Shown here in pieces: positions 6,866 through 7,355 of a stretch of DNA of 64,000 bases (positions are counted from its first letter, which is position 1; the number at the start of each line of letters is the position of its first letter). A program made the translations under genes and the position numbers. Source of the DNA: Pelagibacteraceae bacterium AG-325-C03 (lineage in GTDB: Bacteria > Pseudomonadota > Alphaproteobacteria > Pelagibacterales > Pelagibacteraceae). The stretch lies in contig QBYC01000002.1 of the NCBI GenBank assembly GCA_003283025.1, positions 1 through 64,000 of the forward strand. The letters run 5' to 3'. Below the pieces are notes generated by a model that was not told the DNA's origin, ran no database searches, and worked only from the letters and a program-made list of their open reading frames with translations.

Positions 6866-6886
6866 CTAGTTTATAATTATTCTAAA
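6866..6886. promoter_or_regulatory. Fur-family (Irr/PerR-like) operator candidate upstream of katG
   Basis: CTAGTTTATAATTATTCTAAA, identical 21-mer to 7335-7355; near-palindrome TTTATAA-TTA-TTCTAAA. Confidence 0.7.
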
Positions 6887-6908
6887 GTAAATATCAAGTG
6901 ACAAACTG

Positions 6909-7316
6909 TCAATTTTTTAAATTTATAAATACCTCTACGTTTTTGATTTTCTTACCATTTGGTGCTTTTGGAATTTTTTGGATAACTATCTCTTTAGCGT
7001 CTATGTCAATTAATTCAGAAGTTTCATTGTCATAAAAATGATGATGATTGATAATGTTTGTATCAAAATAAGTTTTTTTTCCTCTGACGTCTACTTCATT
7101 TAAATGCCCTGCGTTTTTAAAAGCGTGTACAGTATTATAAATTGTAGCTAGAGCAAATTTAAATGTGGTTTTTTTTTCTAAAAGCTTATTTAAACTTTCA
7201 ACTGTAAAATGAAATGTTTTGTCTCTTTCAAATAAAAATTTGGCAATTTCTACTCTTTGTTTGGTTGGTCTTAAACCTGATGATCGTAATTTCTTAAAAA
7301 TGTCTATTTTTTTCAC
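6909..7316 (-). CDS. irr: Fur-family transcriptional regulator, Irr-like
   Basis: LRPTKQRVEIAKFLF, ALATIYNTVHAF, KTYFDTNIINHHHF (Irr-like HHH motif); located next to fabA as irr is in Rhizobiales. Confidence 0.75.
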   Translation of the reverse strand: MKKIDIFKKLRSSGLRPTKQRVEIAKFLFERDKTFHFTVESLNKLLEKKTTFKFALATIYNTVHAFKNAGHLNEVDVRGKKTYFDTNIINHHHFYDNETSELIDIDAKEIVIQKIPKAPNGKKIKNVEVFINLKN

Positions 7317-7334
7317 TTTTTTTAATGTTTTTAT

Positions 7335-7355
7335 CTAGTTTATAATTATTCTAAA
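7335..7355. promoter_or_regulatory. Fur-family operator candidate upstream of the irr-like gene
   Basis: Exact 21-bp copy of the katG-proximal site. Confidence 0.7.

Follow-up and report, generated by a model that had tools for sequence, protein, structure and literature searches.

A conserved operator shared by an Irr-family regulator gene and katG in SAR11 bacteria suggests a two-promoter peroxide switch

Introduction

The closest described relatives of the system reported here are the Irr/IrrA regulators with their ICE boxes and the PerR proteins of Bacillus, Campylobacter and Leptospira (PerRA and PerRB). Characterized Irr proteins sense heme (PMC7762939). In R. sphaeroides, katE rises on loss of Irr; neither a box nor binding was found, and direct control was considered unlikely (PMC3413700). 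Within the Fur family, PerR and also Irr are separated from Fur by an Asp at the position of D104 in the protein described below and PerR is further separated from Fur by an Asn instead of an Arg in the recognition helix, Irr having the PerR-type residues at both positions; further, Leptospira perRA is preceded by sequences similar to Irr boxes (PMC8638967, PMC8638851). A third described system, which concerns targets, is the aerobic-type rubrerythrin-RFO-DUF3501 module (PMC5114695, PMC7050145). Neither Irr nor PerR nor the word 'regulator' occurs in PMC5114695, which thus mentions no linkage of the module to irrA or an ICE.

Here, we analyse 64,000 nucleotides of Pelagibacteraceae bacterium AG-325-C03 (contig QBYC01000002.1, positions 1 to 64,000; hereafter the window). 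The host belongs to SAR11, whose members are among the most abundant bacteria in the ocean. The genome of cultured P. ubique has been described as lacking catalase, and this featured in the argument that peroxide in the surface ocean is removed by less abundant microbes (PMC3033426). In the open-access literature searched, we found no description of an Irr box at katG, of a linkage between irrA, an ICE and rubrerythrin, or of the scavenger exchange reported below. The main computational reconstruction of Irr, reportedly that of Rodionov et al. 2006, lies outside that scope.

Results

The locus consists of a Fur-family regulator gene, hereafter irr, followed by katG and flanked by the divergent fabA. 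The features of the window that are used below are the following:

3805-4047, minus strand: DUF2061 membrane protein, 80 aa, after the hydroxylase-like gene; a small gene of similar kind follows katG in several relatives
4048..4668, minus strand: Asp/Arg beta-hydroxylase-like gene, 206 aa, 12 nt after katG (Pfam PF05118)
4681..6855, minus strand: katG, catalase-peroxidase, 724 aa, ATG start at 6855, proposed main target (NCBIfam catalase/peroxidase, 1012.7 bits, above cut-off)
6870..6886, minus strand: operator 2, TTTAGAATAATTATAAA, within the 21-mer at 6866-6886, between irr and katG; putative, from repeat and conservation
6876..6904, minus strand: candidate katG core promoter TTGTCA-17-AATAAT, -10 inside operator 2; weak match from a consensus scan only
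6909..7316, minus strand: irr, Fur-family regulator of the Irr/IrrA lineage, 135 aa, without cysteine, GTG start at 7316 (Pfam FUR)
7339..7355, minus strand: operator 1, TTTAGAATAATTATAAA, within the 21-mer at 7335-7355, before irr; proposed autoregulatory site, from repeat and conservation
7360..7387, minus strand: candidate irr core promoter TTGATT-16-TATATT, abutting operator 1; consensus scan only
7407, start of fabA, divergent from irr
21940-22371, minus strand: second Fur-family gene, of Fur/Mur type, grouping with Rhizobium Mur in our tree

An earlier note on this DNA had pointed to an exact 21-bp repeat in front of katG and the irr-like gene, one base from the ICE palindrome and resembling PerR boxes. 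Both descriptions are accurate. The 21-mer CTAGTTTATAATTATTCTAAA occurs in two exact copies (6866-6886 and 7335-7355), each upstream of a minus-strand gene, with irr preceding katG. The window contains no further match with three or fewer mismatches. At this threshold 0.04 matches are expected, and two matches were obtained in 0 of 100 shuffled windows. Read on the minus strand the repeat is TTTAGAATAATTATAAACTAG. A single base distinguishes its 17-bp core from the PerR box TTATAATNATTATAA, and likewise from the ICE palindrome TTTAGAA-N3-TTCTAAA. The whole genome (972 kb on 50 contigs, 79% complete) contains two exact copies of the 17-mer, those at the irr and katG sites; a third site with one mismatch (C1:120737) was rejected as it lies within an 869-aa reading frame. 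The candidate promoters are to be read with care, the number of consensus matches in the region being not clearly above that in shuffles.

Related loci were taken from Pelagibacteraceae single-cell genomes and MAGs, nearly all of which share the gene order fabA|irr-katG. Their conserved unit is a 17-bp core, TTTAGAA-YNR-TTATAAA (also written TTTAGAA-TnA-TTATAAA), mostly followed by xTA(G). The 21-bp operator proposed earlier stands as a repeat, while identity over all 21 bases is particular to the window genome. A box with at most one mismatch to the ICE pattern was found between irr and katG in 69 of 71 distinct SAR11 regions (0.000 in shuffles) and upstream of irr in 55 of 71 (0.001 in shuffles). 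These rows are phylogenetically related, such that the counts measure conservation and not independent origins. Aligned boxes from both positions show nearly invariant half-sites around a variable centre; rows of this alignment were picked by pattern, and the counts above constitute the unselected test. In most loci, 8-15 nt separate the katG box from the start codon; for the irr box this distance is about 22-25 nt. Part of a sub-clade whose Irr is 54-61% identical has lost the irr box but keeps the katG box, and katG is thus the firmer of the two putative targets.

To characterize specificity, 101 genomes were scanned with the exact pattern TTTAGAANNNTTMTAAA, which weak sites can escape, using the reversed pattern as control. 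Pelagibacter genomes with an intact slot as a rule carry two sites, at irr and at its neighbour, and few others; the reversed pattern yields scattered matches of its own. An extra site, TTTAGAACTATTATAAA, recurs in five genomes, with a similar site in G002. It is located at the 3' end of an alanine dehydrogenase gene and was set aside as a coding coincidence. No iron-storage, heme-synthesis or iron-uptake promoter was seen to recur with the box in this exact-pattern scan of 101 genomes. Predicted sites instead lie at irr, katG, the rubrerythrin operon and a 1-Cys peroxiredoxin gene, amounting to a putative regulon of peroxide scavengers and the regulator itself.

Several of these sites are unlinked to irr. 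In two sister-family genomes katG lies away from irr and is boxed nonetheless (exactly in G100, with one end base off in G050). The sister-family 1-Cys peroxiredoxin gene is boxed at eight loci, some of which represent the same genome fetched twice. In L109-L126, L151, L153 and L154, also from the sister family, the box sits between the 1-Cys peroxiredoxin gene and a divergent gene for a metallo-beta-lactamase-fold hydrolase.

Natural deletions provide the converse case. Two genomes (G003 and G024) carry fabA with no irr found, and their katG, located elsewhere, is unboxed (best matches with 4-5 mismatches); in G005, irr has been lost between fabA and katG and the box is altered at an otherwise invariant position. 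These are single cases from incomplete genomes (57, 87 and 74% for G003, G024 and G005, respectively), and they all point the same way. Ten same-genus genomes lack both irr and katG. This was rejected as evidence of co-loss, since nine also lack fabA and in the tenth fabA is at a contig edge; missing assembly is the most likely cause.

The gene behind the operator is exchangeable. In three Pelagibacter genomes without a detectable katG (G002, G035 and G076), a rubrerythrin-RFO-DUF3501 operon directly follows irr, with a box in reverse orientation ahead of it, and this operon also comes after most sister-family irr genes, in many cases behind a palindromic ICE. Among evenly sampled Alphaproteobacteria, rubrerythrin adjoins irr at 66 of the 90 loci examined, some genomes contributing two overlapping loci. 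An ICE with at most three mismatches is present in 37 of 50 distinct intergenic regions of the class, compared with 0.010 in shuffles. Since the layout fabBA|irrA-[ICE]-rbr-RFO-DUF3501 is widespread in the class (L209-L268), the rubrerythrin arrangement is probably ancestral, and katG appears to be a newcomer in Pelagibacter that replaced rubrerythrin under a retained operator. The placing of the regulator by fabA, noted earlier as a trait of Rhizobiales, likewise holds widely across Alphaproteobacteria. In one genome (G038; L128 and L155), the ancestral irr position, about 200 nt ahead of fabA, still holds a palindromic ICE, with irr-katG-hydroxylase on another contig.

Mapping the neighbours on the irr-locus tree requires at least three changes. 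Even katG is of more than one kind: two genomes with the same TTTAGAACTATTATAAA operator and similarly related Irr proteins (G031 and G019; 80 and 79% identical to that of the window) encode KatG proteins 68 and 93% identical to the window's. Of 44 same-genus genomes with irr, 41 have katG and three rubrerythrin; this agreement in 44 of 44 could largely be obtained from assembly gaps, as the genes are adjacent. The Irr-katG pairing proposed earlier thus applies to SAR11 without the slot being tied to katG, since other SAR11, and most of the sampled Alphaproteobacteria, carry a rubrerythrin operon there.

The PF05118 hydroxylase-like gene comes after katG in most SAR11 loci and is probably the last or middle member of a predicted katG operon. 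In G003 and G024, in which no irr was found, a homologue adjoins fabA, though katG is elsewhere.

The regulator is assigned to the Fur family by PF01475 (64.2 bits), a fold that is supported by an AlphaFold model (pLDDT 83.8) and Foldseek. Irr/IrrA is by far the best family: the models NF045678 and NF045677 score 145.2 against a cut-off of 150 and 132.7 against 170, so both scores stay below, the IrrA one narrowly. Fur and PerR models are far off, with the PerR models giving 34.4, 62.5 and 64.7 bits against cut-offs of 180, 200 and 250. In a tree the protein groups with 70 Irr sequences of the class and is separated from PerR of B. subtilis and C. jejuni; deep support is low (84), and the long-branched Leptospira PerRA falls in the same low-support node as alphaproteobacterial Irr. 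The suggestion that the regulator reads like Irr is therefore supported by family scores, and the tree leans that way with weak deep support.

Residues H36, D85, H91, H93 and D104 as well as N61 are invariant in 98 SAR11 sequences. So is H91-H92-H93, which contains the HxH heme-binding motif, H91 and H93 being PerR metal ligands too. Because the metal site and N61 are common to PerR and Irr, these residues do not decide between heme and peroxide sensing. No cysteine is present in the window protein, and with it are missing a structural zinc Cys4 site and a cysteine heme regulatory motif; Leptospira PerRs likewise lack CxxC motifs and the Cys4 site (PMC8638967, PMC8638851). A profile comparison with solved structures gives PerR chains as its three best matches (5nl9, 6dk4 and 2fe3), 6dk4 being C. 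jejuni PerR (PMC8638967), and the best Foldseek match of the model is Leptospira PerRA.

Discussion

Compared with described Irr/IrrA systems, the SAR11 protein agrees in sequence lineage, place by fabA, HxH, N61, D104 and operator type. It differs in its scores below the curated cut-offs, in a TTATAAA half-site in Pelagibacter where sister-family genomes have the perfect palindrome, and in its targets: no iron or heme targets were found in the scanned genomes, and katG is both direct neighbour and predicted target. With PerR systems it shares the type of predicted target (itself, katG, rubrerythrin and peroxiredoxin), the metal-site residues, N61, an operator one base from the PerR box and the closest solved structures. 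It does not, however, fall within the PerR branch of B. subtilis and C. jejuni, and its box keeps G5, i.e. the ICE half-site, while a peroxide response is so far a prediction here. The rubrerythrin-RFO-DUF3501 module fills the slot in three Pelagibacter genomes, in the majority of the sister family and in a large part of the class, whereas the window slot holds katG. The protein is thus Irr by descent and appears PerR-like in the work it does. The label 'Irr' given by the earlier note holds for ancestry and not necessarily for the signal, as the predicted targets are peroxide scavengers and no iron genes were found.

Overall, we lean towards an autoregulated Irr-family repressor narrowed to peroxide scavenging and operating as a two-promoter relay. 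Its individual parts differ in strength. Direct regulation of the irr and katG promoters by the adjacent Irr-family protein is very likely; the idea of an autoregulated regulator directly controlling katG, raised in the earlier note, receives strong comparative support from conservation, genome-wide specificity, the natural deletions and the unlinked boxed katG. A dimer would hold the expression of both genes low by binding, at their core promoters, the 17-bp dyad TTTAGAA-N3-TTATAAA. Repression is the likely mode, and occlusion is suggested because the boxes overlap or abut candidate core promoters, themselves weak matches. Peroxide stress would then free the dimer, such that KatG, probably together with the dioxygenase gene behind it, would be induced along with fresh regulator. 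That the predicted targets are heme and non-heme peroxide scavengers suggests the signal; that it is peroxide perceived via a metal (Fe or Mn) we consider about an even call. By analogy with PerR, we favour metal-based sensing through H36, D85, H91, H93 and D104 over the heme-driven inactivation of rhizobial Irr. What speaks against this two-promoter relay is that the protein groups with Irr and not with B. subtilis or C. jejuni PerR, that characterized Irr proteins are heme sensors (PMC7762939), and that Irr is able to activate as well as repress.

A classical Irr with a narrow regulon would sense heme or iron; iron shortage would leave apo-Irr to repress the costly heme enzyme gene katG, and heme or oxidative damage of heme-bound Irr would lift repression. 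Such a regulator would fit the Irr lineage, the HxH motif (HHH at 91-93) and the ICE-type operator, and heme-bound Irr is indeed degraded in an oxygen- or ROS-linked manner in Bradyrhizobium (PMC7762939). We nevertheless regard it as a minority possibility, given that the box does not recur at promoters of iron-storage, heme-synthesis or uptake genes in the 101-genome scan, that non-heme rubrerythrin or peroxiredoxin takes the place of katG and that the cysteine heme regulatory motif is absent. Further, in P. ubique under iron limitation, Irr protein was not significantly changed, the irr transcript tracked stationary phase more, and rubrerythrin mRNA was raised (1.57-fold) and not lowered (PMC2864753). 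This rise would be in the direction expected of a metal co-repressor and opposite to repression by apo-Irr, although the effect is small and the comparison presumes that rbr lies beside irr. Irr is known to activate some genes, depending on box position (PMC7762939), but activation of katG is unlikely here: in most loci just 8-15 nt lie between the box and the katG start, which places the box at the likely promoter or downstream of it and suits occlusion.

The box might also be bound by a different regulator, such as the Fur/Mur paralogue at 21940-22371, with irr merely one of the targets. The window does contain this second Fur-family gene, and Fur boxes are AT-rich and related; the paralogue, though, has an Arg at the N61 position, as is typical of Fur, box and irr travel together through Alphaproteobacteria, and katG of G003 is without a box even though a Fur-type match remains in that genome. 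We therefore consider this very unlikely. For a chance repeat or a recent duplication without function, the AT-rich genome and the restriction of full 21-base identity to the window genome could be invoked, but conservation of the same two places across divergent species, with varying centres and flanks, and the shuffle-controlled counts reduce its probability to almost nil.

Most of the same-genus genomes examined that retain the locus thus have katG under an apparent switch of its own, and the three exceptions have rubrerythrin under a similar one. The sole LysR-type gene found in the 79%-complete window genome lacks cysteine and is not an OxyR; owing to that completeness, an OxyR or further targets may have gone unseen. 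The locus points to a way in which peroxide control can be maintained where an OxyR is not found, and it cautions against reading iron regulation into every 'Irr' annotation. A regulon of just two sites lends itself to study with a single purified protein and a pair of short DNAs. More speculatively, and less likely than not, IrrA may at its root have been a dedicated peroxide regulator paired with rubrerythrin across Alphaproteobacteria. Rhizobial iron and heme control would then be derived, while SAR11 would have kept the peroxide job, exchanged its scavenger more than once under a retained operator, and possess in Irr a metal-based peroxide sensor outside the PerR clade.

Two smaller features of the DNA around the boxes were also observed. 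Of 147 distinct SAR11 box contexts, 113 have xTA right after the core, mostly as CTAG or GTAG (6866-6869 and 7335-7338 in the window), and the operator may extend beyond the ICE. An inverted repeat, TGACA-AAC-TGTCA (6899-6911), spans the irr stop codon with a T run following it on the plus strand, and is partly conserved in relatives.
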